In this document: positions 40,132 to 62,442 of the stretch, piece by piece
Position numbering within the stretch: the first letter of the stretch is position 1
How the letters are laid out: every line of letters begins with the position of its first letter
Source of the DNA: Candidatus Nitronauta litoralis
GTDB taxonomy: Bacteria; Nitrospinota; Nitrospinia; Nitrospinales; Nitrospinaceae
Direction of reading: 5' to 3'
Length of the DNA: 64,000 bases
Assembly (NCBI GenBank): GCA_015698285.1
Contig: CP048685.1
Span: forward strand, 434,001-498,000
Notes under the pieces: model-generated
The model's database searches: none
The model's input: only the letters and a program-made list of their open reading frames with translations
What the model was told of the DNA's origin: nothing
Translations under genes and position numbers: made by a program

Positions 40132-41421
40132 TCAGTCCATGGGCAAAGTGAAAAAGAACGTACTCCCCTCGTCTAGTTTGCTGGACGCGCCAATACTGCC
40201 ACCATGCAACTGGATCAGCTTTTTAGCAATTGCCAACCCCAGACCAGTTGATTTTTCCCCTCCTGTTGGCCGGGCCGAGAGTGTTTGAAATTCTTTAAAC
40301 AATAGCTTTTGATCCTCCTCAGAAATTCCGGGCCCCTGGTCCTTGACAGAAAACCGGACATTATTTCCTTCCATTTCTGTCGTCACAACCACTTTTGTTT
40401 CCGGTGGAGAGAATTTGATGGCATTGGTCAGAAAATTTCCCACGACCTGTGTGATGGCGCTGCTGTCAAAGGAAATGGGTGGAATATCTCCCAATTTTGG
40501 AATCAGGCTTATATTTTTTTTGCTCGCAAACAATTCACTCAGCTCAATCTGTTGCCGGGCAGTCGTATTTAAATCCTGGACTTTTTTCTCCAGTTCAATT
40601 TTTCCACTTTCAATTTTGGAAACATCGAGCAGGTTTTCCAGGAGGTTTTTCATGAAATCACTGGCATTAAATATTTTCCCCAGTAACTCTTTTTGCCTCG
40701 AGTTAACATCCCCCACGCTGCCTTCTTTCATAACCTCACTGAAAGACCGAATAAGATACAAAGGGTTTCTAAGATCATGCGAGGCAATACCCAGGAATTT
40801 ATTTTTCATCTCATTCAATGATTTCAGTTCTTCATTTTTCCTTTTAATATCCTCTTCCCTTTGCCTGGAGACGATTGCATCTCCTATCAAACCACCGATC
40901 GAAAGCAGGATCTCCTGGCTCCGGCAATACCATGGAGGATTCTCGTCTGTATAAAGAAACAAGACTCCAAGAGTTTTACCCGAACTTTTCAAGGGAACTA
41001 TATAATGCCCATGCGCGGTCATTCCCTCGAATCGATTTTCATGCCTGCTGTCCGAAAAACAGTTGTTACTGATAATCATTTCTCCGGACACTACAGCCCG
41101 CCCACACAGACAATTGCCATAGGGGATCTCTTTCTCCTTTTCGAGAAATTCATCGGAAAACTCCCCTATCGTGCTGAACAGGCGAAGAACACGCTGTTCC
41201 TCATCTGCGAGAAAGATCCCTGCCTTGCACTCCACCTCCAACTCACGGAATCGGGTCAGCGTGATCATCACCGTTTCCAGCATTTCCTGAATCCCTTCTG
41301 CGTTGTGCAGAATTTTGGCAACTTCGTGGAGAACCCGATACTCCTCAGTTCTCTGGCGAATCTCCTCCTCTGCAGATTCGATTTTATCTGTGCTTTTTTC
41401 AATTTTGTTGACGGGGTCCAT
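40132..41421 (-). CDS. GAF-domain sensor histidine kinase (HisKA type)
   Basis: 429 residues, no membrane segment. After a coiled coil, a GAF domain (about 30-190) has GNCLCGR and HGHYIVPLKS motifs. The transmitter has the phospho-His in GIASHDLRNPLYLIRSF; ATP-binding has NFLTNAIKFSP, DQGPGIS and GLGLAIAKKLI. The GAF domain is nearly the same as in the kinase at 43104, but that protein has a HisKA_3 transmitter. The paired Cys in CLC could bind metal, haem or an Fe-S cluster, or sense redox (inference). The response regulator at 41757 lies upstream in the same run and is a likely partner. Confidence 0.9.
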   Translation of the reverse strand: MDPVNKIEKSTDKIESAEEEIRQRTEEYRVLHEVAKILHNAEGIQEMLETVMITLTRFRELEVECKAGIFLADEEQRVLRLFSTIGEFSDEFLEKEKEIPYGNCLCGRAVVSGEMIISNNCFSDSRHENRFEGMTAHGHYIVPLKSSGKTLGVLFLYTDENPPWYCRSQEILLSIGGLIGDAIVSRQREEDIKRKNEELKSLNEMKNKFLGIASHDLRNPLYLIRSFSEVMKEGSVGDVNSRQKELLGKIFNASDFMKNLLENLLDVSKIESGKIELEKKVQDLNTTARQQIELSELFASKKNISLIPKLGDIPPISFDSSAITQVVGNFLTNAIKFSPPETKVVVTTEMEGNNVRFSVKDQGPGISEEDQKLLFKEFQTLSARPTGGEKSTGLGLAIAKKLIQLHGGSIGASSKLDEGSTFFFTLPMD

Positions 41422-41440
41422 CGCAGTGGTTCTCCATTAA

Positions 41441-41635
41441 TCAAGTATGGTGAGTGTTGATTTTACAAACTCCATAGAGCGGACAGTTTCCTACTAAACC
41501 GGTAGCCAACGGAACGAGACCGATTACAGTTAAAGCAGTCCCAATTGTTCCACCCATAAAAACCCCGCCTCCAATCATCAAAACACCTGCCGTCACTCTT
41601 AATATCCTGTCTGTTTGTCCAATGTTCTGTTTCAT
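41441..41635 (-). CDS. DUF2892 (YgaP-like) small membrane protein
   Basis: 64 residues. It opens with the conserved QNIGQTDRILRVTAGVL, has two short transmembrane helices, and ends with GNCPLYGVCKINT. This is the inner-membrane part of YgaP-type proteins, which elsewhere is fused to or lies beside rhodanese domains. Its role is unknown. A GGAGG sequence precedes the ATG. Confidence 0.9.
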   Translation of the reverse strand: MKQNIGQTDRILRVTAGVLMIGGGVFMGGTIGTALTVIGLVPLATGLVGNCPLYGVCKINTHHT

Positions 41636-41756
41636 GATGACCTCCTGTTTTTAATGGTTACTTTTGTAAGGCTTGCCGATCCCTTATCGCCGTGCAACAT
41701 CCAGATAACAGCATCCAGAAAATGGAGAACCGGAACCGACAAGCCCATCGGCAACC

Positions 41757-42152
41757 CTACAATCCGATGTCTTTTCCTGTATCCAGGACCTGCTCCACCG
41801 TACTGATCAGTTTTTCCTTATTCACTGGCTTGACCAGGTAATCCTTGATTCCTTTTTTCATTAAGGAAGCCGCCAGTTCGCCATCAGGAAAAGCCGTTAC
41901 CACCACCACTGGAATCCCCGGCGCATTCTTCTTGAGGTAGTCAATACATTCGACACCGTCGACTTTAGGCATCCGAATATCACAAAGAATCAGACCCAGG
42001 TTGCTCAGATGATCCCCTTCATGCAAAACCCGAATGGCCTCTTCCCCGTCTTCAGCTTCCAGAATTTGAAATTTCTGTCCTTCCAGTTGTAGCTTCATTG
42101 CTTCACGTACATCCTGCTCATCGTCTACGATCATGATTTTTCCTGTTGGCAT
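41757..42152 (-). CDS. single-domain response regulator
   Basis: 131 residues, a receiver alone. Acidic pair in MIVDDEQD, phosphorylatable D58 in LILCDIRMPKVDG, conserved Lys in YLVKPVNKEKL. It is likely the target of one of the flanking GAF kinases, most plausibly the HisKA kinase at 40132. No output domain. Confidence 0.92.
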   Translation of the reverse strand: MPTGKIMIVDDEQDVREAMKLQLEGQKFQILEAEDGEEAIRVLHEGDHLSNLGLILCDIRMPKVDGVECIDYLKKNAPGIPVVVVTAFPDGELAASLMKKGIKDYLVKPVNKEKLISTVEQVLDTGKDIGL

Positions 42153-42378
42153 TGGAACCCCCTTGGTAAAGTTTTATATTTAAGTAATGCTAAAAAGTTT
42201 TTTTCAACTGAGATCAGTGTAGAAAAAAACAGCGCTGGGGGTAATCGCTGAAACGACTAAGATCAGGAGGTGGTTTTTCAACAATTTCTGTAACAGAACT
42301 ACTACAGGAGAGGAGGCAGGAGTGGCCATCGGGATTGGGCTGGAAGGTTATAGGCCAGGGAAATGAGGAGGTAAAAAA

Positions 42379-43032
42379 CTAGGCGATAAGGTGATTGTCG
42401 ATAGCATAATGAATCACATCGGCATTACTTTTCATATCCATTTTTTGAAGGATACGCCCACGGTAAGTACTGATCGTGTTAATGCTCAGGCAGAGTTCTT
42501 CTGCGATGTGTTTCAGTTTTTTCCCACCGGCAATCATGGTGAAGACCTGAAACTCTCGGTCCGTGAGTGTTTCGTGCAGAGGTTTGTCAGAGTCCCGGTT
42601 GAGATCCGAAACCAGTTTATCAGCCAGATTGGGTGATACATACTTGCCACCACAGGCAACCTTTCTAATCGCTTCCACCAACTGGTCCGATGCACTCGAT
42701 TTTCCGAGATAACCTGATGCCCCGGCTTTTAGAAACCGGGTTCCATAATGATCTTCAGGAAATATACTTAATATAATTACAGGCAATTTCGGATAAAGCG
42801 CCTTCAACTCAATCAGGGTGTCCAAGCCGTTTTTTTCCGGCATGTCAAAGTCGAGCAGGATTAAATCAAAGTCCTGCTTCCCCACAATATTTAAAACATC
42901 ATTTCCGTTTTCTGCCTCACCGGTCACAGTCATATCCTGGTGATCCGCAATAATGGTTTTCAACCCTTTGCGCACCACTTCATGATCATCGGCGATCAAT
43001 ATTCGAATTTTATTTTCTTTGGTATTTGCCAT
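42379..43032 (-). CDS. NarL/LuxR-type response regulator
   Basis: 217 residues. An N-terminal receiver has D61 in LILLDFDMPEKNG and the Lys in GYLGKSSAS. A C-terminal LuxR helix-turn-helix (about 150-212) has LTDREFQVFTMIAGGKKLKHIAEELCLSINTISTYRGRIL. It lies 71 bases downstream of the HisKA_3 kinase gene at 43104, its clear partner. Phosphorylated NarL-type regulators dimerise and bind promoters. Confidence 0.95.
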   Translation of the reverse strand: MANTKENKIRILIADDHEVVRKGLKTIIADHQDMTVTGEAENGNDVLNIVGKQDFDLILLDFDMPEKNGLDTLIELKALYPKLPVIILSIFPEDHYGTRFLKAGASGYLGKSSASDQLVEAIRKVACGGKYVSPNLADKLVSDLNRDSDKPLHETLTDREFQVFTMIAGGKKLKHIAEELCLSINTISTYRGRILQKMDMKSNADVIHYAIDNHLIA

Positions 43033-43103
43033 TCCTGTTCAAAACCCTATCGTTAAAAAATTCTTCACAAAAATAAAGAACCCTCGTGCTCATTGACAGT
43101 CGC

Positions 43104-44399
43104 CTATCCCGAAGCCAGAGGAATTCGAACCACAACTACCGTTCCCTTCCCTGGCGTGCCAAGGAACTCAGCACGCCCATTATACGGAAGGATTCGCTCC
43201 TGGATGCCGATCAGTCCAATGGATTCAAAGTTCGCGACATCCTTTTCGCGGATGCCGATGCCATCATCCTCTATAGAAAAAACCAGCTCACCCTCTTCCA
43301 GACGAATTCTCACTTTGACCTGGGTCGCCTTTGCATGGCGGACAACATTTGACACCGCTTCCTGGAAGACCCTGAACAGGGAAACCTGCATCTTCTTATC
43401 CATTTCTATGGAATCCTGAAGATCGTCGACATCAAATTTCAGATGGTAGCGGCTTTCATACTCTTTCGCCTGCCAGGCAATTGCTTCGCACAACCCAAAA
43501 GCATCCAGGATGGGCGGACGCAGTTCAGTGGCAATGCGCTGAACAGATTGGATTGTTTCGTCAATAACTCCCGTCATGGCGATTGCCCGGGTCTTCAATT
43601 TGGACAACTCCTCTGGAAGTTTTTTCCCGATCTGAATACTGTCTATTTTCAACGCAGTCAACGCCTGCCCCAATTGATCATGAACTTCTCTGGCAATTCG
43701 AGACTTCTCTTCTTCCCGTATTTCCTGCACCTGGTTTCCCAGTTTACGGAGCTGGTCCCTGGATCGTTTCAGATTTTCATTTGTCGCCTTGAGCTCCGCA
43801 GTTCGAGACTCCACCACACTTTCCAACTGGTCCCGATAAGCCGCCAGTTCCAGGTCAACCTGTTTTTTTTGTATCGCTCCCGCAATCAATCCACCGATCG
43901 AAAGCAGAACTTCCTGGCTGTTCTGGTACCAGGCTGGATGAATGTTGGAGTAAAGAAAAAGTATCCCAACCAGCTCATTTCCACTTTTCAAGGGAACAAT
44001 GTAATGACCATGCGGAGTCATGTCATCGTAAGCTCGCTCATGACGCGGATCAGTAAAACAATTTTCGCTCATCAACAAATCACCCGATTCAGCAACCCGA
44101 CCACATAAACAGTTGCCAAAGGGGACCTCTTTTTCCTTTTCCAGGAACTCGTTCGAAAAATTTCCGAAGGTTGTAAAAAGCCGCAAAACTTTCGCCTCGT
44201 TATCCGCAAGAAATATCCCGGCCTTGTTTTCCACTTTCAGGTCCTCAAAATGCGTAATCGCCCGCATGACCTGCTGCAGCATTTCGATCAGATCACCCTT
44301 GGTCTGTAAAATCTGAGCCACATTGTGGAGAACCCGGTATTCGCCGGTGATTCTTTCGTCGGAATCCTCTTGGGGGGAGTTATTTCCAATTGATGACAT
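43104..44399 (-). CDS. GAF-domain sensor histidine kinase (NarX-type HisKA_3)
   Basis: 431 residues, no membrane helix. The GAF domain (about 20-180) has GNCLCGR and HGHYIVPLKSG and matches the kinase at 40132 at most positions. A coiled coil leads to a HisKA_3 transmitter (RIAREVHDQLGQALTALKID) and a HATPase domain (EAVSNVVRHAKAT, DDGIGIREKD, GLIGIQERI). It is the natural partner of the NarL-type regulator downstream. Two kinases with one sensor but different transmitters may let a single signal control both a DNA-binding and a stand-alone regulator. Confidence 0.93.
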   Translation of the reverse strand: MSSIGNNSPQEDSDERITGEYRVLHNVAQILQTKGDLIEMLQQVMRAITHFEDLKVENKAGIFLADNEAKVLRLFTTFGNFSNEFLEKEKEVPFGNCLCGRVAESGDLLMSENCFTDPRHERAYDDMTPHGHYIVPLKSGNELVGILFLYSNIHPAWYQNSQEVLLSIGGLIAGAIQKKQVDLELAAYRDQLESVVESRTAELKATNENLKRSRDQLRKLGNQVQEIREEEKSRIAREVHDQLGQALTALKIDSIQIGKKLPEELSKLKTRAIAMTGVIDETIQSVQRIATELRPPILDAFGLCEAIAWQAKEYESRYHLKFDVDDLQDSIEMDKKMQVSLFRVFQEAVSNVVRHAKATQVKVRIRLEEGELVFSIEDDGIGIREKDVANFESIGLIGIQERILPYNGRAEFLGTPGKGTVVVVRIPLASG

Positions 44400-44755
44400 T
44401 CCGAATTATCTCCTGACGGTCCGCTAAATGGGTTTCAAGCTTCCTGTATTTCCAACCACCCTGTTCATTTTCTCACAGAATTGTTGGCTCCAAAAGCATT
44501 GAGAACAGTGGGACTATATCCAACCCTCATTTATCCCCCCGCAAAGGATAAGCCCAAAGCCTGACTATCCTTGACAATGATTTGGAATACCATAGAATTC
44601 AATGCAGTTCGGCAAAAAAACTACCAGTCGTAGTAGACAATTTCCAAGTTGTGGTTGCATTACCACTTTCGGCCTGATGACTACGGGCAGTCAGAATTGA
44701 ATCAGGCTGGAAAATCCAGTTTCTGAAAACAAATCTAAATTGAGGGAGCGGGTGC
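44400..44755. other. divergent intergenic region with a promoter for the exported-protein cluster
   Basis: 356 bases between the start of the GAF kinase gene and the first secreted paralogue. It contains the sigma70-like promoter at 44571-44598 and a 157-base leader. No small gene is supported. Confidence 0.5.
44571..44598 (+). promoter_or_regulatory. sigma70-like promoter of the exported-protein cluster
   Basis: TTGACA (44571-44576) is followed after 16 bases by TAGAAT (44593-44598). It stands about 157 bases before the ATG of the first paralogue and is the only good promoter seen ahead of the run of seven genes. Confidence 0.6.
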
Positions 44756-45322
44756 ATGATTAACCAAACTTTCACCGGGAAAGGTCTATCAGGTTTCAGA
44801 GGAGTTTTATCTTCGGCTTTTGCCTTCCTTTGTTTAGCAACCATAAGCACTTCATCTGCTTTGGGTGCGGATACCGTGATGCCTGCCCCCCAGGACACTG
44901 TTTCCATAAAATTAAAATGGAACGATCCGCCGGCAAAGGTTCAACTTAAAGATTGGAGATGTACCGGTGACGGACCCAATCTGGATTTCGATGGCACACT
45001 TATGGATGAAGTGAAGTCGGTTATTGGACGCATTGCCGATCTGGATGCATCGTTTCCCAATAATCCGGAAGGAATGAAGAACGAGGCGCTAAAAGAAATT
45101 GAAAAAGACCAACCAAATTATGGCTGGGCTATCTCTTTTCCGTCCCTCACAGTGGGTCCCTACGATGCCCCGCACGGATCAACCAGAACCTATAAAATCA
45201 AAACCTGCTACACCAAAAGTGAAATCAGGCAATACATTGATTTCCAGAAAAAACTACTGGAGCAACTGAAAAACAGTAAAGACCCAGTGGGCGATGCCAA
45301 GAGAATGATGACCCAACTTTAA
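44756..45322 (+). CDS. secreted Cys-pair paralogue 1 of 4
   Basis: 188 residues, ATG with GAGGGAG upstream. The signal peptide ends near SSALGAD. The first family motif is VMPAPQDT...LKWNDPPAKVQLKDWRC and the second KTCYTKSE, followed by a helical C-terminus ending SKDPVGDAKRMMTQL. The single mature Cys in each motif probably forms one disulfide. No known family recognised. The three following genes encode proteins with the same two motifs and the same ending, so the set arose by tandem duplication and long divergence. Role is inferred only from context: part of a surface export or assembly system. Confidence 0.82.
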   Translation: MINQTFTGKGLSGFRGVLSSAFAFLCLATISTSSALGADTVMPAPQDTVSIKLKWNDPPAKVQLKDWRCTGDGPNLDFDGTLMDEVKSVIGRIADLDASFPNNPEGMKNEALKEIEKDQPNYGWAISFPSLTVGPYDAPHGSTRTYKIKTCYTKSEIRQYIDFQKKLLEQLKNSKDPVGDAKRMMTQL

Positions 45323-45387
45323 TTCCCACTCACTAATAGCGCCTGATTTTAACGCCTGGTGCGAAACATTGAATGTGGAGCAATACC

Positions 45388-45996
45388 ATGTACCCAAAAA
45401 CAAATAAACTAAAACAAGCTTCAAGTCTCCTGGTCTTCGCCATTACCCTGCCATTACTCTTTTCCTGTTCGATGGCCTTTGGACAAAGCAATTTTGGCAA
45501 CCCGGAAATGGGTCCCGGCCCAAACAATTCCAACACCGACATTGTTCCGGCTCCCAAAACTGTTTACAACAGAACCCTCAAATTAAAAGACCCGGGTATC
45601 TACGTCAAATTGAAAGACTGGTACTGCACCTCAATTCCCTTTAAAGAACGTTTAAAAAAAATCATCGATAAAACAATCGGGGATACCAATCAACTTGGCA
45701 GGGCACCAATCCCTTCAGAGATACAAGAACTAAGCAATTTCTCAAGTGATTTGATAGATGAGACAAAAAGAATGGAACAAATGGGCAATCCCCAATATTT
45801 CAATCCGCTGCCTGGCAACTTTCAACAATCGGTCCACAAAACCTGCTACACCAAAGCCGAACTGGACCAGATAGAAAAATTTGGCAAGGATTTCGATAAA
45901 TACCTGGAAGACCAGGGTTATTACCGGGGACAGCCGGATGACCCCACAGGAGAGGCCATGCTTGAATACCGGCGTGCTCTGTATGGTGTCCAATAA
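45388..45996 (+). CDS. secreted Cys-pair paralogue 2 of 4
   Basis: 202 residues from the ATG at 45388 (GGAG nine bases before); an ATG 15 bases earlier is less well placed. A signal peptide ends near AFGQSN. Family motifs are IVPAPKTVYNRTLKLKDPG, VKLKDWYC and KTCYTKAELDQ. The C-terminal part diverges from the others (DDPTGEAMLEYRRALYG). A possible lipobox-like Cys (LLFSCS) occurs inside the signal peptide, so lipidation is conceivable but not favoured. 65 bases separate it from the preceding gene. Confidence 0.8.
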   Translation: MYPKTNKLKQASSLLVFAITLPLLFSCSMAFGQSNFGNPEMGPGPNNSNTDIVPAPKTVYNRTLKLKDPGIYVKLKDWYCTSIPFKERLKKIIDKTIGDTNQLGRAPIPSEIQELSNFSSDLIDETKRMEQMGNPQYFNPLPGNFQQSVHKTCYTKAELDQIEKFGKDFDKYLEDQGYYRGQPDDPTGEAMLEYRRALYGVQ

Positions 45997-46037
45997 TATT
46001 TTAAAATTTGCTCTTCGTAAGAAAGGAGACCGGCGTT

Positions 46038-46679
46038 ATGAAATTCAATTTAAAAAATTTAATCCAGTCGACTGGTTTAATAGCCCTGGCTCTTTTGTTG
46101 ATGAGCACAGCGAATCAAGCTATCGCCCAGAGCTCCATGCAGGGTTTTGCAGGAGGCGGAGGAACCTCCGGCGCTAAAGGGAGTCCTAGCGGTTCCGGAA
46201 GGAACCTGCTAGGCGGGGCACATCTTTTAAACGCACTTGGCTTAAATGACAAAGTCATTCCTGCCCCCAAGACTTCCGGCAAGTGGCAGTTAAAGTACAA
46301 CGATCCGGGAATCAACGTAACTTTACTGAACTGGAACTGCCGGGACAACTCCATTTGGAGTGACACTCTCAAGGGCCCAATCAATGGATTTAAACATGTT
46401 TGGGGAAAATATGGAAAATCAGCTAAAGCTGCAAAAGGTGCCAAGGAACATTTTGATATTTACCTAAAAACGGTAGAGCAGGATGTTAGGAGGGGAATGA
46501 AAAAATCCCCCAAGCACGGCATTTTCAGCCCTCCCTTCGGTAAAACAGAAACCAAAACTGTCCGATACTGTTACACAGATGCCGAGGTAGATCAGTTCAT
46601 TGCCTATATAAAAGGGATGTTTAAGCACCTTGGCTCCCACAGCGACCCTGTGGCTGAAGTTAAAAGGTTGTTCCCTTAA
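46038..46679 (+). CDS. secreted Cys-pair paralogue 3 of 4, with Gly-rich insert
   Basis: 213 residues from the ATG at 46038, preceded by GAAAGGAGACC. A signal peptide ends near QAIAQ. A Gly/Ser-rich stretch (about 34-65: FAGGGGTSGAKGSPSGSG) precedes the first motif KVIPAPKTSGKWQLKYNDPG, VTLLNWNC, and the second VRYCYTDAEVDQF. The ending is HSDPVAEVKRLFP. The Gly-rich insert is like the connectors of the large repeat protein encoded two genes downstream, which supports a physical link between these products. Confidence 0.82.
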   Translation: MKFNLKNLIQSTGLIALALLLMSTANQAIAQSSMQGFAGGGGTSGAKGSPSGSGRNLLGGAHLLNALGLNDKVIPAPKTSGKWQLKYNDPGINVTLLNWNCRDNSIWSDTLKGPINGFKHVWGKYGKSAKAAKGAKEHFDIYLKTVEQDVRRGMKKSPKHGIFSPPFGKTETKTVRYCYTDAEVDQFIAYIKGMFKHLGSHSDPVAEVKRLFP

Positions 46680-46752
46680 AAATAGAAATAGCGACAAACC
46701 TCATCTTTTAAAAAATAACTGAAAAAACGCACAAACCCATTTGGAGGGTGTG

Positions 46753-47304
46753 ATGGTTGATCAATCGAACACTGTAAAAACCTTTCGTTTGTTTTCCTGG
46801 CTGGCCCTGATCCTGGTGTTATTACTGCTAATCACCTCTTCGGCCCAGGCACAGGGCAATATGATGGAAGTGCCCGCCCCCAGGACTCTTGGGAAATTTA
46901 ATTTACTACAAGGTTCTCCACCTATCTGGGTCAAACTCCAGGGCTGGTATTGCCTTAACGAGTCGTTAGCAACATTTATTGGACAAGAATTAGACTCTTA
47001 TATAACTGGTATGGGCGGAAAAAAGGATTTAAAGTTTGAGCGTGCTACGGCCAAAGTTGCCTTTGAAAACCTGGAAGGAGATTACGCACTTAAAAACTTT
47101 GAACATGCCAAAGACCCGAAATACGGTCAATTCAACCCCTCTCCCGGCATGACGATCTATAAGTCGGTCAAACACTGCTACACAAGGGATCAACTCGTCA
47201 AATGGAATGAGTTAATAAAAAGATTGGCTCAACAGATGGTAAATTCTCCGGATCCAGTTAAAGAAGCCAAACGCCTGCTTCCCAATTTTTCGAACGGCAA
47301 ATAA
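46753..47304 (+). CDS. secreted Cys-pair paralogue 4 of 4
   Basis: 183 residues from the ATG at 46753, with GGAGGGTG just upstream. The signal peptide ends near SSAQAQG. Motifs: MEVPAPRTLGKFNLLQGSPP, VKLQGWYC and VKHCYTRDQLVKW, then SPDPVKEAKRLLPNF. It is the shortest paralogue. Its stop is 11 bases before the start of the large repeat protein, indicating one transcript. Confidence 0.82.
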   Translation: MVDQSNTVKTFRLFSWLALILVLLLLITSSAQAQGNMMEVPAPRTLGKFNLLQGSPPIWVKLQGWYCLNESLATFIGQELDSYITGMGGKKDLKFERATAKVAFENLEGDYALKNFEHAKDPKYGQFNPSPGMTIYKSVKHCYTRDQLVKWNELIKRLAQQMVNSPDPVKEAKRLLPNFSNGK

Positions 47305-47315
47305 CCGAATATTTA

Positions 47316-50168
47316 ATGACCCGATCGCAAAACAAACAGTTTCGCAGAAAAAAAAATAAAAGCCGCCCACGTTGGATCCAGGTGCTGCTTTATAGCGTTC
47401 CCGTTTTGTTGATTTTTGCGATGCCAGCCTATTCCGCACCACCCAAAGTAACTCACAATCCTCCCTTATCTGGTTCCTCTGCTAACAAAACTTTTGGTGT
47501 CTCAGATTTCACCCCGCCGCAACCAGCAGATGGACACACAGTCAATATTCAGGTTTCGCGGGAAGAAAGAGTGGGCAGTGAATCCGGTGGTGGCATTGCC
47601 GTTGGCAGCAAACCCAGGGAGTACCCGGCAACTGACTTCATCCCTCCACAACCAGCAGATGGACACACGGTCAATATTCAGGTTTCGCGGGAAGAAAGAG
47701 TGGGCAGTGAATCCGGTGGTGGCATCGTGGTTGGTGGCAATCCCAAAGAGTACCCGGCAACTGATTTCATCCCCCCGCAACCAGCAGATGGACACACGGT
47801 CAATATTCAGGTTTCACGGGAAGAAAGAGTGGGCAGTGAATCCGGTGGTGGCATTGCCGTTGGCGGCAAACCCAGGGAGTACCCGGCAACTGATTTCATC
47901 CCTCCACAACCAGCAGATGGACACACAGTCAATATTCAGGTTTCGCGGGAAGAAAAAGTGGGCAGTGAATCCGGTGGTGGCATCGTGGTTGGTGGCAATC
48001 CCAAAGAGTACCCGGCAACTGATTTCATTCCTCCACAACCGGCAGACGGTCATACCGTAAAAATCCAGGTTTCTCGTAACGGAGGAACAGTCAATGAATC
48101 TGGCGGCGGCATCGCTGTCGGTGGTGGCAACGTCGCTGGCATCCCCAAACCCCCGGCAGGACACGAACTCACCATCAACGTCTCACGGGAAAATAAACCG
48201 GGTAGCAGCCCCGGTGGTGGGGGCATTGCGGTCGGAGGGGGCAATGTAGCGGGCATTCCAAAACCTCCCGCAGGTCATGAACTCACCATCAACGTCTCAC
48301 GGGAAAACAAACCGGGTAGCAGCCCCGGTGGTGGGGGCATTGCGGTTGGAGGGGGCAATGTAGCGGGCATTCCAAAACCTCCCGCAGGACACGAACTCAC
48401 CATCAACGTCTCACGTGAAAACAAACCGGGCAGCGGTGTTCCCGGGGGTGGAGGAATAGCAATCGGCGGAGGCGAAGGCGGACTCAAACCACCCGCGCTT
48501 CCTTCCGATGGACATTCAGTAACTATTACAGTCACCCGTGAAAAAGATACAGGTATTGGCGGTGGAACAGGCGGCGGGATTGCGGTAGGTGGAGGAAAAG
48601 GTGGAATCAAACCGCCAACACTCCCTTCTGATGGACATTCAGTAACGATCACAGTCGCTCGCGAAAAAGGTACAGGGATTGGCGGAAAAAGCGGAGGAGG
48701 TATTATTGTCGGTGGTGGTATTCCAGGGGGTGGCATAACCCCACAAGGTGGAGGCAGCGTTCCGGGTATCCCTGAACCACCAACTGCCAAAGACGGTCAT
48801 GAAGTCGCAATAACTGTGGGACGAGACAAGCCTCCGGCTGGTGTTGGGACTCAACCAGGTGTCGCCCTGACGGGGGAAGGCCTTCTTGTTCCACCAGCTG
48901 CCAAAGACGGTCATGAAGTCGCAATAACTGTGGGACGAGACAAGCCTCCGGCTGGTGTTGGGACTCAGCCAGGTGTCGCCCTGACGGGGGAAGGCCTTCT
49001 CGTTCCACCAACTGCAAAAGACGGTCATGAAGTCGCAATAACTGTGGGACGTGACAAGCCTCCGGCTGGTGTTGGGACTCAGCCAGGTGTCGCCCTGACA
49101 GGGGAAGGCCTTCTTGTTCCACCAACTGCGAAAGACGGTCATAAAGTAACAATAACTGTGGGACGAGATAAAGCTCCTGGAGGGGTTGCGGGACAACCGG
49201 GTGTTGCCATAACCGGAAATGGCGTGCTGACCCCTCCTACTGCCAAAGACGGTCATGACGTCACAATAACTGTGGGACGCGATAAGCCTCCTGCCGGTAT
49301 TCCCGGTGGTGGTGGAGGTGGTATTGCCGTCGGAGGTGGCGAAGGTGGAATCAAACCGCCAACCCTCCCTTCTGATGGACATTCAGTAAAAATTACTGTG
49401 GCTCGCGAAAAGGGTACAGGGACTGGGGTTCCAGGGGGAGGCGGAGGCATCGCTGTCGGTGGAGGTGAAGGACAGATTCAACCACCTAAACTTCCCGGAG
49501 AAGGCCATTCCGTTACGATTACCGTTTCACGTGAAAAGGAATCCGGTACCGGAATTCCAGGTGGGAGCGGAGGCACTGTGGTCGGCGGAGGCACCGCAGT
49601 CGGTGGCGGCACTAAACCACCGAGCGATGAAGGTGGCTCTGTTTTTTACAACGGAGAATGGGTGAGTTTTCTTTTGGAACAGGTCTTCAACATTACTGGA
49701 AACAATCCGGTCGATCCACGCAATCCGTTGAACCGGGAAGGTGATGATGTTATCGAGGAACCGGGCATCATAATCGGTGTTGATGGCACTCCACCTGTAA
49801 CACCCCAAAGGGGTGGCAGCGCACCCGTCGTAGTGGGTGGAGGCGGTGGGTTAGTGCCTGCCGTCCTGACAAACATCGCGGTTGCCGCCAATTGCGATGT
49901 CAATGCAGGAGCCGGAACCAGCACACTCAGTCTGAACGGGACCGCTTTTTGTACTGTAACGGGAGCGGCACCTGTCTTCGCTGGAGGCAATACCAACCAG
50001 ACCTGTGTTCAGGGAACCACGATCACTTTGACACTGAGTTGCACGGCAACCAACTGCCAGTTGAACCTTGGGGCGGTATCCCCTCCAGGCCTGGCGTTTA
50101 CCGGTATTAACCCCGGGATCAATGGCCCATTTACAGGGGTGACCAACTTTACCGGCACCTGTCCATAA
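47316..50168 (+). CDS. large exported Gly-rich repeat protein with six-Cys C-terminal domain
   Basis: 950 residues. The signal peptide has an unusually long basic start (QFRRKKNKSRPR) and ends near AYSA. Residues 64 to about 765 hold 17 repeats of 38-54 residues, each with a PP-containing segment, GHxVxIxVxR (alternating residues, one conserved His and Arg) and a flexible Gly-rich end (GGGIAVGGG type). A linker with YNGEWVSFLLEQVFNITGNNP follows, then a C-terminal domain (about 850-950) with six Cys (NCDV, FCTV, TCVQ, LSC, NCQL, TCP) that probably form disulfides. The repeats look like single beta-strands joined by loops, as in fibrous or amyloid-like surface proteins; no known family is recognised. 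Confidence 0.88.
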   Translation: MTRSQNKQFRRKKNKSRPRWIQVLLYSVPVLLIFAMPAYSAPPKVTHNPPLSGSSANKTFGVSDFTPPQPADGHTVNIQVSREERVGSESGGGIAVGSKPREYPATDFIPPQPADGHTVNIQVSREERVGSESGGGIVVGGNPKEYPATDFIPPQPADGHTVNIQVSREERVGSESGGGIAVGGKPREYPATDFIPPQPADGHTVNIQVSREEKVGSESGGGIVVGGNPKEYPATDFIPPQPADGHTVKIQVSRNGGTVNESGGGIAVGGGNVAGIPKPPAGHELTINVSRENKPGSSPGGGGIAVGGGNVAGIPKPPAGHELTINVSRENKPGSSPGGGGIAVGGGNVAGIPKPPAGHELTINVSRENKPGSGVPGGGGIAIGGGEGGLKPPALPSDGHSVTITVTREKDTGIGGGTGGGIAVGGGKGGIKPPTLPSDGHSVTITVAREKGTGIGGKSGGGIIVGGGIPGGGITPQGGGSVPGIPEPPTAKDGHEVAITVGRDKPPAGVGTQPGVALTGEGLLVPPAAKDGHEVAITVGRDKPPAGVGTQPGVALTGEGLLVPPTAKDGHEVAITVGRDKPPAGVGTQPGVALTGEGLLVPPTAKDGHKVTITVGRDKAPGGVAGQPGVAITGNGVLTPPTAKDGHDVTITVGRDKPPAGIPGGGGGGIAVGGGEGGIKPPTLPSDGHSVKITVAREKGTGTGVPGGGGGIAVGGGEGQIQPPKLPGEGHSVTITVSREKESGTGIPGGSGGTVVGGGTAVGGGTKPPSDEGGSVFYNGEWVSFLLEQVFNITGNNPVDPRNPLNREGDDVIEEPGIIIGVDGTPPVTPQRGGSAPVVVGGGGGLVPAVLTNIAVAANCDVNAGAGTSTLSLNGTAFCTVTGAAPVFAGGNTNQTCVQGTTITLTLSCTATNCQLNLGAVSPPGLAFTGINPGINGPFTGVTNFTGTCP
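47505..49620 (+). repeat. three successive arrays of in-frame tandem repeats
   Basis: Units 1-4 are 129 bp each (47505-48020) and alternate between two versions (IAVG..KPRE and IVVGGNPKE), so the true period is 258 bp; unit 5 (48021-48140) is a 120-bp transition. Units 6-8 are 114 bp (48141-48482). Units 11-14 are 114 bp (48768-49223) with another sequence type. Units 9, 10 and 15-17 form linking types. Near-identical DNA within each array shows recent duplication. Confidence 0.9.
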
Positions 50169-50193
50169 AGTCAGCGTGCCTGGAGAGCAAGGA

Positions 50194-50709
50194 ATGTCAG
50201 GGAAACGGGTAACATTCATAACAGGAGTTTGCTTCCTATGCAGTGCACTTTGGTGCTTTGCTCCGGAAGCAAAAGCTTCAGAATTTCGCCTGCTCAATCC
50301 CATCCGCACTCCTGCAAACTCGCTGCCAAAGGGCGCTGAGGCAGTAGACCAGATCAGGCCTGTGGACCGCGATCTGGTTCGCCTGATTATGAAGAAACTG
50401 TTTTCAGCCTGGAACGGACCCGACCTGACAAAATTATTGAGTGAAACCTTTTTTGACCGGCTACGTCTCGAATTTAAAATGACGGAAATTCCGCGCGATG
50501 CGAAGCTCCGACTACTGGGCCTGCAGGGAATGCAAACCCTCAATCAACACATCATGGAAAATCCTAAAACAGGGAAGAAGCAGGTGGTCAGCCGGGTTTC
50601 AGTAACCGCAAGAACGCAAATCGAATTCAATGATCTTCAGCTTGGTTTCCAGCGAATACCTGGAACGAATGAATACGTTTTACAAGTCAAACAAAACCTG
50701 AATCCTTAA
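50194..50709 (+). CDS. small exported protein of the repeat-protein cluster
   Basis: 171 residues from the ATG at 50194 (GGAGAG eight bases before); the frame is open from a GTG 18 bases earlier. A signal peptide ends near EAKAS. The mature part starts FRLLNPIRTPANSLP, has a helical core (RDLVRLIMKKLFSAWNG) and ends in beta-like segments (VVSRVSVTARTQIEFNDLQL, EYVLQVKQ). The helix-then-sheet order resembles NTF2/SnoaL-like folds, but this is not secure. It sits between the large repeat protein (25 bases) and the beta-barrel (9 bases), so it may be a periplasmic chaperone or adaptor (inference). Confidence 0.75.
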   Translation: MSGKRVTFITGVCFLCSALWCFAPEAKASEFRLLNPIRTPANSLPKGAEAVDQIRPVDRDLVRLIMKKLFSAWNGPDLTKLLSETFFDRLRLEFKMTEIPRDAKLRLLGLQGMQTLNQHIMENPKTGKKQVVSRVSVTARTQIEFNDLQLGFQRIPGTNEYVLQVKQNLNP

Positions 50710-50718
50710 CGGACAACA

Positions 50719-52980
50719 GTGTTCAAATTGCCAAATTCAATGAGTATTTTGCAAAATAAATATTTACAGGTCTCCAGAGTATTGTCGCTGATTGCGGCAG
50801 GTTTTTTCCTGTCCGCAGTATTCAACCTGGCCCATGCGCAGGACCCGGTCGACCTGTACCAGATGGCAAAAGATGTTGCAGCTCCCTGGCATATCCATGG
50901 CAAGAACACGGCCAGTTATGAGCATTACATAGTCGACGGCAATCAGGCAGCCAGTCCTTTCCGTTTTGACGATGAGCAGATCTTCGATGAGTTCAATATC
51001 AATCTGGATCGTCGAATCTCTCCCTATGAACGCTGGCAGGGTCAGATTTTTGGAGTGCTCAATGGGTCCAGCTATCGCAGTAATGAAGGAGGCTTTGTTC
51101 CGGAACGGCTGAGCCTGTTCAGAGAAAAAGGAGATTCCGCCCTCCCCCACCGGGCACAGGTCGGCGACTACTTTGGCTTTTTCAGTTTCCGCACCCTGCA
51201 AAGTTCGCTTAAAGGCGCCCAGGTGGAGTTGCAACCGGCACCGAATCATTCCATCCAGATTTTTTCAGGAGCCCGGCAATCCTCCTGGAGACGCATGCAG
51301 TTGTCCGACAATTACAACAACGGCGCCTCCTATCTTTTCCAATCCGAGACTGTTGGAAGATGGGGACTGAATTTTGTTCACAACTACCGCCAGGGAAACA
51401 ACCAGCTCGGAACACTGGACCGCAGTCAGGCAGTCTTCAGTCTTGCGGGTGAGAAAAAGTGGCTGCTCGGATCGCAAAATATCAATACTGAGCTGGAAGT
51501 TGCCGGATTCTCAGGAGACCACAATGGAATTGCAGGGGCCGCATCCGGTCAGGATCAAAGCGACGCGGGGGTGTTCTTTCAATTGTCGGGAAATAGCGAA
51601 TCACCGCTGACTTATCGGGTCCGTTATGAAAGATACGGCCAGGACTTTCGTCCGGCAGGGGCAGTCGTGACCCCTGACCGGCAAACGGTTGAAGGACACA
51701 CAGGCTGGCGATTTGATTCGGGCCTGCAAGCAAGGTTCCGCATCCAGCAATTTGTGACAGCGCTGGAAACGGCCAATTCAAACACCACCCGTACTTTTGG
51801 GTTATCAATCAACGGACCGATTTTCCGCCGATGGTTGAGCAACCTGACCACCAACCTGAATGCTTTCATCCAGGATGTCGATAATGAAACGGGATCGGTG
51901 GATCAGACCATCCAGACCATCAACCTTGATCTTTCAAAACCATTGGTAGCGGGTTGGAACGGACGATTCAATTTCTTCTGGCAAAAATCCAATGACCATG
52001 TGGGCCCTGCCAATACCGAAACCAAAGTAGTGACGGTCAGCGCCGATCATCCCATCAACCTGTGGGGATGGGAAGGATCGATCACCCCCGGGATCGCAAT
52101 GCGGGAAATTCATGTCCCGCAAGGTAGCGGCAGCACGGATGTCATCCCCACCCTGGCCGCGGTTCTGGAAAATGGACGGCATCATCTCGGTTTCAATAGC
52201 GAGTTCCGCAACCAGAACCGGCACCCAATTGTCCAGGCCGACATCAACACGTTTACTTTTAATGCGGATTACCGGTACCGGATGGAGCAACACACTCTGG
52301 GCCTTGAAGTGACCAATATCAACCGGGACCCAACTATAGGACAAAGCACTGATTCTGTTCGGGTTGGCGCTTTCTGGACCTGGTTTTTTGACAAACCCGC
52401 CCGTGTGGCAGCGCGCCCTTCATCGCAAATTTCAAGGCCGGGAGCACCGGAACCCTCTACCGGGTTTACGGGCGACGAGTTGACCTTTGCCGATCTATCA
52501 CCGGGTCTGAACTTCAAGGAAGCTTCCCGCCGGGTTCGTATCTCAGGAATGGGGAGCCCGACACCTCAAGACCCCTACCAGGTTTACGAAGTCCGATGGT
52601 TTAAAAACATAGACCAGCGTCAGCGTCTGGTACTGGAAAACAGGCGGGGCAAAGTAGCCCGATCCGGCCTGGTCGTCGAGTTCCAGGATATCGGGAATGT
52701 CGACACCTTCCGGCAAACGTTTAAACAGATCCAGGAAGCACTGCTGGCACGTTACGGAAGGTTCACCTCGTTCTTCGAAAAAGGACAATTCACAGCGAAC
52801 CTGATGCAGGATATCAACAACGATGTGTTGATCCGGATTTACGAATGGGAAACCCCGGATGGGGTCATCCGTCTCGGAATTCCACGTCGTCTGGACCGGC
52901 AGGTCAGGATCGAAATCCAGTTCGCCTCCTCGTTTCCTTCGGTGCAGGACACACTGTGGTCCTTCCGCGCAATTCGCTGA
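50719..52980 (+). CDS. large outer-membrane beta-barrel protein with C-terminal soluble domain
   Basis: 753 residues from GTG (50719); an ATG seven codons later is possible. The signal peptide ends near LAHAQD. Residues about 50-590 are rich in alternating beta-strands with aromatic girdles (GQIFGVLNGSSYR, VELQPAPNHSIQIFSGARQSSW, WGLNFVHNYRQGNNQL, HTLGLEVTNINRDP, VGAFWTWFFDKP), consistent with 18 or more barrel strands. A Pro-rich linker leads to a soluble alpha/beta domain (about 620-753; YEVRWFKNIDQRQRLVLEN, RQTFKQIQEALLARYG). It could be the export channel or anchor for the preceding secreted proteins. No known porin, usher or secretin family is recognised. Confidence 0.8.
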   Translation: MFKLPNSMSILQNKYLQVSRVLSLIAAGFFLSAVFNLAHAQDPVDLYQMAKDVAAPWHIHGKNTASYEHYIVDGNQAASPFRFDDEQIFDEFNINLDRRISPYERWQGQIFGVLNGSSYRSNEGGFVPERLSLFREKGDSALPHRAQVGDYFGFFSFRTLQSSLKGAQVELQPAPNHSIQIFSGARQSSWRRMQLSDNYNNGASYLFQSETVGRWGLNFVHNYRQGNNQLGTLDRSQAVFSLAGEKKWLLGSQNINTELEVAGFSGDHNGIAGAASGQDQSDAGVFFQLSGNSESPLTYRVRYERYGQDFRPAGAVVTPDRQTVEGHTGWRFDSGLQARFRIQQFVTALETANSNTTRTFGLSINGPIFRRWLSNLTTNLNAFIQDVDNETGSVDQTIQTINLDLSKPLVAGWNGRFNFFWQKSNDHVGPANTETKVVTVSADHPINLWGWEGSITPGIAMREIHVPQGSGSTDVIPTLAAVLENGRHHLGFNSEFRNQNRHPIVQADINTFTFNADYRYRMEQHTLGLEVTNINRDPTIGQSTDSVRVGAFWTWFFDKPARVAARPSSQISRPGAPEPSTGFTGDELTFADLSPGLNFKEASRRVRISGMGSPTPQDPYQVYEVRWFKNIDQRQRLVLENRRGKVARSGLVVEFQDIGNVDTFRQTFKQIQEALLARYGRFTSFFEKGQFTANLMQDINNDVLIRIYEWETPDGVIRLGIPRRLDRQVRIEIQFASSFPSVQDTLWSFRAIR

Positions 52981-53270: not shown

Positions 53271-54674
53271 ATGACTTCACAAAATGTATTATCCCGTCTT
53301 ATCGAGCTGACCTGCAATGTCAGCGATGCTTTCACGACAGCACTTTATGTTGCCCAGTCGGACCAGAGAACGCTGGCCTTGCGCGAGCACTGGTCCATGA
53401 GCCCCAACATCAACGAGGAATCGGTCGTGTCCATTGGACAAGGCCCAATAGGCCAGGTAGCAAAAGACAAACGCGCCTGGCATGTGGAGTTTACAGAAGG
53501 AGAAATCCCCCAGCTCCCGCAATACTTGCAAACAGAAGAAGTCAAGGGGGTGCTGGCTGTCCCTGTAGTTGCACAGGGTCTTGAAGGTGTTCTTGTTATC
53601 GACACCAAAGAACAATTCGGATTTTCTACCAAACAACAGAAAATCATCAAAAGCATTGCCGAACAAATGGCCTGGCACCTGAGTCGTGAACGATCCTCAC
53701 TCGGACCTTCCGATGAAACAGCACTAAAAAACTTTTCGGAAGTAGTGGAATGGTGCCGAACCCTCTCTGAAGTGGAAGACCGAGCCGCGCTTTCTGACCG
53801 GCTGGTGCAGGTTCCGGAGACTGTTTCAAACTGTGATGCTGTGGCCGTGATCTGGTTCAATGGAGAGGAAGGCCGCGTCCAGAGGTTCCGGGGTTGGGAA
53901 CAGGAATTGCGCGCCTTTCGAGTTGAACCTGGCAAAGGATTCGCCGGGTCCTCTGCTAAGAACTGCAAACCCTTTCTGATGCGCAGCACCAGCGACCGCA
54001 AGGTAGTGGTTTTTTCTGAAAAAGAAGAACACGAGCCGATGGGGTCGCTGCTATCGGTACCAATTCTCATACGCGACCAACTGCACGGCCTGATCGTTGT
54101 TGGCACTCATGAGCCTTACGGGCTTTCCGCCAAAGATCAGAATATATGGACACTCATCGCCGCATTTTCTGCCAATGCATTAAAGTGCGCGGAAATTCAG
54201 ACCCAGTGGGAATATGATAAAAATCTCTGTCAGGTAACAGGCATTCCAAATCATCGTTTCCTTTCCACCTATCTTGAAGCGGTGGAAACTGAAATTTTTC
54301 GAGAAGGTCGATCAGTCCACATCCTGACCGCGCTGATGAAAAATCTACACGTTATCTACAGCCGATATGGAGTCGAGACGGGTGACCTTTTTTTAAAACA
54401 AGTGATTTCGATTCTGGCGCAAGCCGTTTCCAGTCCAAAATATATTTTCAAATACACCGAATCTTCTGTAGTCATGGTATTGATGGACATAGACTCTGAA
54501 GAGGCACGGGGCCTGCGTACACGTCTCCGGCAGATTTTCACGCAAGAACCCTTTATGATCGAAAACGAACCCATGGAAGCCCAGGTCAGCCTTGGGTTGT
54601 CATTTCACCCTGCAGATGGTGACAACCTTGACAGCCTGATCGGTATTTCACTGGCACGCGCCACCAGCAACTGA
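53271..54674 (+). CDS. tandem GAF protein with degenerate GGDEF domain
   Basis: 467 residues. GAF domains cover about 10-145 (GPIGQVAKDKRAWHVEF, VLAVPVVAQGLEGVLVIDT) and about 160-315 (GFAGSSAKNCKPFLM, LLSVPILIRDQLHGLIVVG). The C-terminus (about 320-467) has the GGDEF fold (QVTGIPNHRFLSTYL, GDLFLKQVISILAQAV, VSLGLSFHPADGDNLDSLI), but the active-site GG(D/E)EF is replaced by TESSV, so it cannot make cyclic di-GMP. It may bind the signal or another nucleotide. It shares the promoter at 53071 and lies 11 bases before mreB, suggesting that it controls or senses for cell-shape machinery. Confidence 0.88.
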   Translation: MTSQNVLSRLIELTCNVSDAFTTALYVAQSDQRTLALREHWSMSPNINEESVVSIGQGPIGQVAKDKRAWHVEFTEGEIPQLPQYLQTEEVKGVLAVPVVAQGLEGVLVIDTKEQFGFSTKQQKIIKSIAEQMAWHLSRERSSLGPSDETALKNFSEVVEWCRTLSEVEDRAALSDRLVQVPETVSNCDAVAVIWFNGEEGRVQRFRGWEQELRAFRVEPGKGFAGSSAKNCKPFLMRSTSDRKVVVFSEKEEHEPMGSLLSVPILIRDQLHGLIVVGTHEPYGLSAKDQNIWTLIAAFSANALKCAEIQTQWEYDKNLCQVTGIPNHRFLSTYLEAVETEIFREGRSVHILTALMKNLHVIYSRYGVETGDLFLKQVISILAQAVSSPKYIFKYTESSVVMVLMDIDSEEARGLRTRLRQIFTQEPFMIENEPMEAQVSLGLSFHPADGDNLDSLIGISLARATSN

Positions 54675-54685
54675 AGGTCCTTTTT

Positions 54686-55729
54686 ATGTTTGGCAGACTT
54701 TTCAAAAATTTTAAGAACCTCTTTAACTCCGATGTGGCAATGGACCTCGGAACAGCCAACACCCTGGTTTATGTGAAAAATGGCGGCATCGTCCTGGATG
54801 AACCCTCTGTAGTTGCTATCAGCACGAATGGGAATGGGAAAGGCCACGTGGAAGCGGTGGGACTGGAAGCAAAAAGAATGTTTGGACGCACCCACGCAGG
54901 ACTGGAAACGATCCGTCCTATGAAAGACGGTGTGATCGCCGATTTCAACATGACCAATAGCATGATCACCACCTTCATCAACAAGGTGATGAGCCAATAT
55001 TGGTTTCTCCGGCCTCGCATGGTGGTGGGTGTGCCCACCTGTATTACGCAAGTTGAGAAAAAAGCGGTTATTGATGCAGCAAAACTGGCGCGGGTTCGGG
55101 AAGTTTACCTGATAGAAGAACCGATGGCTGCCGCCATTGGAGTGGGCATTCCTGTCCACAAAGCTGAAGGCAATCTGGTGATCGATATTGGAGGAGGTAC
55201 CACCGACGTTGCTGTCACAGCTCTTTCCGCTATTGCCTATGGTGAATCGATCCGCATTGCAGGTGACGAAATGGACGAAGCGATAGTTCGCTATATTCGT
55301 CTGAAACATCATATGAATATAGGCATTTTTGAAGCGGAACGAGTGAAGATCGAGATCGGCTCCGCCTATCCACTTGAGGAAGAGCAGACCACTGAAGTTA
55401 AAGGTATGAATATCAAAACCGGAGTCCCGACTTCTATAATAGTGAATGATACGGAGATTCGTGAAGCCATGCGGGAGCCAGTCGCCAGTATCGTATCGGT
55501 CGTGATGCGGGCTCTGGAAAAAACCCCGCCGGAACTTTCCTCCGATATCCACTCAAATGGACTTTATCTCACCGGTGGCGGCGCCCTGATCCGGGGTCTG
55601 GATAAATTGATTGAGGAACGGACCGGGTTGCGGACCTATGTTCCCGACCAGCCATTGCTCAGTATCGTCAAGGGAGCCGGCGCGGTGCTCGATAACTTCT
55701 CGGAAATGCGAAAAGTCTGTATCAATTGA
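54686..55729 (+). CDS. mreB: actin-like cell-shape protein MreB
   Basis: 347 residues, standard length. It has AMDLGTANTLVYVKNGGIVLDEPSVVAIS (phosphate 1), GVPTCITQVEKKAVIDAAKLARVREVYLIEEPMAAAIG, IDIGGGTTDVAV (phosphate 2) and YLTGGGALIRGLDKLI. MreB forms filaments at the inner membrane that direct lateral wall synthesis. The usual mreC/mreD neighbours are absent, and the upstream partner is a GAF-degenerate-GGDEF protein instead. Confidence 0.97.
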   Translation: MFGRLFKNFKNLFNSDVAMDLGTANTLVYVKNGGIVLDEPSVVAISTNGNGKGHVEAVGLEAKRMFGRTHAGLETIRPMKDGVIADFNMTNSMITTFINKVMSQYWFLRPRMVVGVPTCITQVEKKAVIDAAKLARVREVYLIEEPMAAAIGVGIPVHKAEGNLVIDIGGGTTDVAVTALSAIAYGESIRIAGDEMDEAIVRYIRLKHHMNIGIFEAERVKIEIGSAYPLEEEQTTEVKGMNIKTGVPTSIIVNDTEIREAMREPVASIVSVVMRALEKTPPELSSDIHSNGLYLTGGGALIRGLDKLIEERTGLRTYVPDQPLLSIVKGAGAVLDNFSEMRKVCIN

Positions 55730-61746: not shown

Positions 61747-62184
61747 TTAATCTCGGCGCATGTGCAAATGCATCGCTGGCCCGTCGTTGTAACTCCGGTC
61801 ACGCCGGGTATCCTGGTAATAATTGTTTTGTCTTGGTGCCGGCGCCGGTGCGGAATAGGTTCGGCGATCATTGTAATAATGATGGTGCTCAGAGTAATAT
61901 TGTCGCGGTCGATAAAACCGGGGTCCTGGCCCCCATCCACGCCACCCACCACGCAATCCTCCGTGGCGCCAATGGCGAGGATGTTGTCTCCAAGGTTTAT
62001 AGGGGCGGAAATGACGCGGCCCATAACTGCGACCATAATTAAATCCAAAACCCGGAGACCCGAAAAAGAAACCAAAATGACTGCCTCCGACCTGTTTCAC
62101 CTTATAATTGGGTCCAGCATTCGCGGTTGATGTCAACGTGAGTGCTAATAGTAGAGCCGCTGGTATGATCCATTTGGTCTTCAT
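61747..62184 (-). CDS. secreted Gly/Arg/His/Tyr-rich protein
   Basis: 145 residues from the ATG at 62184, which has AGGAGG nine bases before; the frame is open 34 codons further. A signal peptide ends near TANAG. The mature protein is low complexity: HFGFFFGSPGFGFNYGRSYG, a central His/Arg/Trp/Gly-rich part, a run of Tyr (YYSEHHHYYNDRR), and a C-terminus with PAPAPRQ. Many bacteria have such secreted Gly/Tyr/Arg proteins of unknown role; wall or surface binding is possible. Confidence 0.78.
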   Translation of the reverse strand: MKTKWIIPAALLLALTLTSTANAGPNYKVKQVGGSHFGFFFGSPGFGFNYGRSYGPRHFRPYKPWRQHPRHWRHGGLRGGWRGWGPGPRFYRPRQYYSEHHHYYNDRRTYSAPAPAPRQNNYYQDTRRDRSYNDGPAMHLHMRRD

Positions 62185-62442
62185 GGCGAGTCCTCCTATG
62201 TTCAGCGCGGTTGATTTTGGTGCGCCGGGATTGCCTTCAGTTCTAAATATATCCCCCACCATTTTTAATGTCAATTTTATTATCAAATTTATAAATTAAT
62301 TTTTATTCATTTTTCAAGGCTTTTGGATTATATATATATGGATAAAGGTGCCCATAACAATACATTGAGGCCCTTTTTTAGTATTTACCCTGCCGATTCG
62401 CCATTCCCTGCGGATCATTTGAAGTGAGAGGAGAGGATATTT

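Follow-up and report, generated by a model that had tools for sequence, protein, structure and literature searches.

In the curli (CsgA/CsgG) and Fap (FapC/FapF) systems, the gene for a repetitive exported protein neighbours those for a dedicated outer-membrane barrel and small periplasmic helpers. A cluster of seven genes with a comparable layout lies in a 64,000-nucleotide stretch of the genome of Candidatus Nitronauta litoralis (contig CP048685.1, positions 434,001 to 498,000), referred to here as the window. The cluster encodes four paralogous Cys-pair proteins, a 950-residue repeat protein (passenger X), a small exported protein (S), and a 753-residue barrel. Strain EB of this species is a marine nitrite oxidiser belonging to the Nitrospinota (PMC8026999), and X, S and the barrel recur together in other genomes as a conserved three-gene core. 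On balance we favour the view that this core is a dedicated outer-membrane export or display module for motif-tagged surface proteins, in which S would act as a periplasmic adaptor.

The likeness to curli and Fap lies in an exported repeat protein next to its own barrel and in the small periplasmic helpers. However, none of the seven proteins, nor the barrel and S families as a whole, matches the curated families of either system; the module has one large barrel, with 26 predicted strands and an added C-terminal domain; and its passengers are not all repetitive. The chaperone-usher pathway (PapC/FimD) similarly combines a large barrel with a periplasmic partner, and ushers were the first Foldseek matches of the barrel by E-value, but the template-modelling scores (TM-scores) were only 0.25–0.33 and no usher family matched. 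Moreover, whereas ushers have a barrel of about 24 strands that is interrupted by a plug domain and accompanied by N- and C-terminal periplasmic domains, the 26 modelled strands of the module barrel are uninterrupted and without a plug, and S is modelled as an alpha-then-beta protein whose best matches are Tim44-like, unlike the immunoglobulin-like chaperone. Two-partner secretion differs in that no POTRA domain precedes the module barrel (no Pfam match, with strands beginning at residue 58). By analogy, the module would work like curli, Fap and chaperone-usher systems, pairing a dedicated barrel with a co-encoded exported protein, and by the tests applied it is a member of none of them.

A conserved three-gene core

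The genes for X, S and the barrel occur together in 13 loci of 12 genomes from the Nitrospinota and Pseudomonadota (the window, L003, L004, L018, L019, L020, L021, L022, L023, L024, L027, L042 and L043), and these three genes are the conserved core of the cluster. A fourteenth core locus, L045, is cut by a contig edge that leaves only the C-terminal end of its barrel. The barrel relative in a gammaproteobacterial metagenome-assembled genome (MAG; L003) shows 46% identity. Further relatives were found in one other Nitrospinota genome (77 searched), in nine of 369 genomes from the class to which the MAG belongs, one of which (L025) holds a truncated copy with the barrel only, in seven of 398 genomes of the MAG's phylum (two of them known before), and in 4 of 78 genomes from the order of one relative, all four known before. 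The barrel comes first in L021, L043 and L045, and because gene order thus varies between loci, the linkage speaks for selection rather than plain inheritance.

S was also searched for independently of the barrel. Among the 369 genomes it occurred in precisely the eight whose barrel is full-length (Fisher p about 1e-15), and among the 77 Nitrospinota genomes in precisely the two that have the barrel (p about 3e-4); these statistics ignore kinship between genomes. Altogether, S was matched in 14 of the 15 genomes with a barrel or barrel piece (in G588 only as a fragment), and in the sole S-less genome of these the barrel is represented only by fragments of its C-terminal domain. Besides the core locus L024, genome G148 carries at another place a second S next to a second X, with no barrel match within the 19.5 kb fetched. 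X and S are therefore the tighter pair, and a single barrel could serve two passengers.

A preliminary description of the cluster, made from the sequence of the window, had treated all seven genes as one system and had named scattered homologues as evidence to the contrary. The homologues are not scattered, since X, S and the barrel form a conserved linked unit; the claim of a single system is borne out for these three genes, and the four paralogues fall outside it.

Organization of the cluster

The features of the cluster, given as window positions, are as follows.

44571..44598, + strand: promoter-like site TTGACA-16-TAGAAT, 11 of 12 consensus bases, preceding the first gene
44756..45322, + strand: paralogue 1, exported W-x-C/CYT protein of 188 residues, accessory (open reading frame, family alignment)
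45388..45996, + strand: paralogue 2, exported W-x-C/CYT protein of 202 residues (open reading frame, family alignment); an upstream start at 45373 is possible
46038..46679, + strand: paralogue 3, exported W-x-C/CYT protein of 213 residues (open reading frame, family alignment)
46753..47304, + strand: paralogue 4, exported W-x-C/CYT protein of 183 residues (open reading frame, family alignment)
47316..50168, + strand: passenger X, 950 residues, with signal peptide, 17 strand repeats, motif, linker and six-Cys tail (sequence)
49698..49715, + strand: passenger motif GNNPVD, X residues 795-800, putative recognition segment (strict motif counts)
50176..50709, + strand: small exported protein S, 171-177 residues (family A5, model, Foldseek, co-occurrence); translation more likely begins at an internal ATG, 50194
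50719..52980, + strand: outer-membrane barrel, 753 residues, with signal peptide (family A4, model, Foldseek)

The genome consists of one contig of 3,921,641 bases. All seven open reading frames were found on the + strand where the preliminary description had placed them, and they are closely packed, with intergenic gaps of roughly 8–74 nucleotides; signal peptides of the seven proteins were assessed by eye. That no known family was visible in the cluster also held, as searches of Pfam and NCBIfam gave no credible match for any of the seven proteins and no credible family for the barrel and S families. The exact counts of 17 repeats and six tail cysteines in the fifth protein were likewise reproduced, and the 753-residue barrel was recovered in an AlphaFold model of 26 strands, which added a C-terminal alpha/beta domain that had escaped the initial reading. 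As for the single good promoter proposed upstream, the site at 44571 exists, but the region shows no surplus of sites like it (5 observed vs 6.8 expected). Since, in addition, no convincing terminator was seen in the cluster region, control of the cluster as one transcript goes no further than plausible.

Predicted structures of the barrel and the small protein

The AlphaFold model of the barrel has 26 consecutive strands (residues 58-559; mean predicted local distance difference test score (pLDDT) 81.7, predicted TM-score 0.60), followed by a separate alpha/beta domain at about residues 590-753 that is retained in all full-length members. In a Foldseek search of the PDB, ushers, LptD and MtrB were among the first matches, with TM-scores of 0.25-0.45, and searches of the PDB by sequence returned nothing for the barrel or for its C-terminal domain. 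The protein is thus predicted to be a large outer-membrane barrel of no specific family. A BamE-like C-terminus was suspected and is unsupported (Pfam BamE in 1 of 15 members, at E 0.2).

Variants of the family bear on its orientation. In L041 (2393-5371), a barrel of the same family has two SPOR domains fused N-terminally, and because these precede the barrel, its N-terminal side is most likely periplasmic. The C-terminal domain also stands alone in a likely lipoprotein (L026, 8612-9307) and occurs as two adjacent, remnant-like pieces in L044 (9149-10574).

The S family has 14 members. In the AlphaFold model of S (mean pLDDT 85), three helices precede three long strands, and the best Foldseek matches of this model in the PDB were the intermembrane-space domains of PARC6 (E 2.5e-4) and ARC6, then Tim44 (E 1.1e-2) and mitoribosomal chain d, with TM-scores of 0.37-0.44; these proteins belong to one NTF2/Tim44-like group. 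The predicted fold resembles partner-binding domains of an intermembrane space; PARC6 binds its partner in that of the chloroplast, and co-crystals with PDV1 are among the matches. By sequence, however, S has no match in the PDB or Pfam, and a Tim44/NTF2-like fold for this predicted alpha+beta adaptor is a lead, not proof.

Passengers and their common motif

In the window X, the repeat [GA]H-x-[VL]-x-[IV]-x-V-x-R occurs 17 times between residues 73 and about 770, in units mostly 37-43 residues long, with one of 54. The repeats are followed by the segment VFNITGNNPVDPRNP, a linker, and a tail with cysteines at positions 860, 879, 897, 909, 914 and 949, ending in Cys-Pro. A TscA match to the repeats fell just below the cut-off, with no single stretch passing alone, and was taken as chance.

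X proteins are otherwise dissimilar, and what they have in common is a segment N-terminal to the tail, V-x-x-V-x-x-x-x-G-x-N-P-(F/Y/V/L)-(D/N/S). Its strict core, G-x-N-P-[FYVL]-[DNS], is present in 11 of 15 X proteins and in none of 151 other open reading frames, against 0.1 on average and at most 2 in 2000 shuffles; the margin is large, and the count is descriptive because the motif was defined from, and after inspecting, these same sequences. A looser pattern matched many repeats and was dropped for the strict one. Five of the 15 X proteins end in Cys-Pro. As a single alignment of all tails fails to hold, the tails probably comprise several domain types.

Three types of X can be distinguished: those with strand repeats (window, L004, L022, L042, L043, L045 and L058), those that are Cys-rich and mostly coiled-coil-like (L003, L018, L019, L020, L021 and L027), and short forms that extend scarcely beyond the motif and tail (L023 and L024). 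Repeats similar to those of the window X occur in L042, L043 and L045. The X of L021 also has HYR and GEVED matches, the latter just below the cut-off, while SdrD_B and Big_9 domains occur, respectively, in the repeat protein adjoining L041 and in the gene preceding X in L023; all four domains are usual in surface proteins. Such domains, in X or in neighbouring proteins of other loci, agree with the surface location in the earlier proposal. The repeats, on the other hand, are not universal: in about half of the passengers, Cys-rich coiled coils or nothing at all take their place, so that a fibre is not a necessary product of the system. That the 17 repeats of the window X form a fibre or matrix is a speculative idea.

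The four paralogues as optional accessories

The four W-x-C/CYT paralogues align over their full length, with paralogues 2-4 showing 29-32% identity to paralogue 1, and they are the sole members of their family in the window genome. Alignment confirmed the P-A-P, V-x-L-x-x-W-x-C, C-Y-T and D-P motifs as invariant or nearly so, except that the first gene reads M-PAP-Q and not the V-PAP originally given. In L045, a profile of the four matched a FecR-domain protein over its C-terminal part (E 1.2e-5), and alignment, together with a FecR domain match, revealed the same arrangement in L043; in both loci the FecR-domain gene sits between the barrel and X. CYT proteins of L004 are similar by eye, the match not being significant (E 0.065). 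The paralogue family is therefore a recurrent accessory that is optional or sporadic and lies outside the core, present in four copies in the window. The capping-subunit role first suggested for these proteins is weakly grounded, because the family is absent from most core loci; related domains stand behind FecR in two others.

Proposed mechanism and alternative explanations

In the proposed export or display module, X would be made with an N-terminal Sec-type signal peptide, as judged by eye, and would enter the periplasm, where the V-x-x-V-x-x-x-x-G-x-N-P-F-D segment and a tail of about 100 residues or more may mark it for the module. S, in the periplasm and with its predicted Tim44/NTF2-like fold, would bind X and hand it to the barrel, a step suggested by the co-occurrence and by the X and S pair with no barrel nearby. 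We infer a pore function for the barrel, whose 26 strands would give the variable N-terminal part of X access to the cell surface while keeping the tail at the outer membrane, and whose C-terminal domain would work in the periplasm. The displayed part of the window X would be its 17 short beta-strand repeats, which perhaps assemble into a fibre or matrix, and the four paralogues would be accessory exported proteins. Several points weigh against this reading. The strict motif is missing in X of L022 and L023, and L004 and L020 have variants that lack the strict form; the tails do not align as one domain; the TM-scores of S to Tim44-like domains and of the barrel to solved barrels are modest; the first two helices and the linker of the barrel model are of low confidence; and the co-occurrence statistics carry the kinship caveat given above.

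An unlikely alternative is that the barrel is an anchor or sheath and not a translocon, with X arriving by another route and plugging or docking into it, much as MtrA does in MtrB, to yield a stable envelope structure. Among solved barrels, MtrB gives the best TM-score (0.40/0.45), and it is of similar size; SPOR and FecR domains in related loci hint at cell-wall contact, and the X tails look like folded beta domains suited to docking. The barrel's sequence, however, is unrelated to MtrB and gives no family match, the unit as read contains no haem-binding protein, multihaem cytochrome or CXXCH-rich partner, some X proteins carry domains usual in surface proteins, and long Gly-rich repeats fit passage through a pore. 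It is improbable that the barrel instead exports polysaccharide or lipid, like GfcD/YjbH or LptD, with X as a minor partner. LptD, one of the Foldseek matches, does have a 26-strand barrel, and GfcD/YjbH exopolysaccharide operons likewise combine a large barrel with small exported proteins (PMC11494523), but the hhalign probability between the module barrel and YjbH was 0.4%, S has no similarity to YjbF, the barrel has no Pfam match to such families, and no polysaccharide synthesis genes were seen next to the loci as read. An ordinary solute porin that lies beside surface-protein genes by chance is very hard to credit: Pfam Porin_4 matches 1 of 11 barrel members (E 3.5e-8) and not that of the window, so that the known porin family named in the preliminary description as a possible counter-finding did not emerge, and the barrel's almost perfect co-occurrence with S and X, next to which it lies in unrelated genomes, contradicts it; a separate C-terminal domain conserved in all full-length barrels also counts against it.

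A fuller version of the export module can be offered tentatively, as a possibility: an undescribed outer-membrane export and assembly system, with a 26-strand translocon, a Tim44/NTF2-like adaptor and a G-x-N-P-F-D signal on interchangeable passengers, spread horizontally among Nitrospinota and Pseudomonadota. Searches of part of the literature for a protein exporter with 26 strands, or for a passenger system with an NTF2-like component, gave no match. The set of core families likewise appears to be new, as X, S and the barrel all fall outside the curated Pfam and NCBIfam families; sequence databases may contain homologues annotated as hypothetical.

Spread and genomic surroundings

The two barrels from Nitrospinota are separated in the barrel tree, where that of the window is nearest to the gammaproteobacterial MAG's, and barrels with different types of passenger are intermixed; support is weak for several inner branches. 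Together with the patchy occurrence of the module, this pattern suggests horizontal transfer plus exchange of passengers between carriers. The plasmids searched held no barrel relative, and neither did IMG/VR contigs, so there is no sign of phage carriage. Downstream of the second Nitrospinota cluster lie an integrase-like and a large primase-like gene (L004 15208-19971), a setting reminiscent of a mobile island.

Upstream of the cluster, the opposite strand (window 40132-44399) encodes two GAF histidine kinases, one of them of the HisKA_3 type and accompanied by a LuxR-type response regulator; these proteins could control the cluster. Two other modules have a BTAD-type transcriptional activator and a large AAA/STAND-type ATPase upstream (L003 2-1987 and L022 7456-9495), possible regulators of those modules. 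Downstream of the cluster, a GAF-GAF-GGDEF protein and an MreB homologue are encoded at window 53271-55729, and a small exported protein with a high content of Tyr, Arg, His and Gly lies at 61747-62286 on the - strand.

Implications

If the proposed module is real, it would represent a new route by which diderm bacteria place modular proteins on their surface, and its tag would allow passengers to be listed across genomes. The common motif of X makes the idea of export or display directly testable. For the Nitrospinota, abundant marine nitrite oxidisers, the module would provide a lead on their surface structures.

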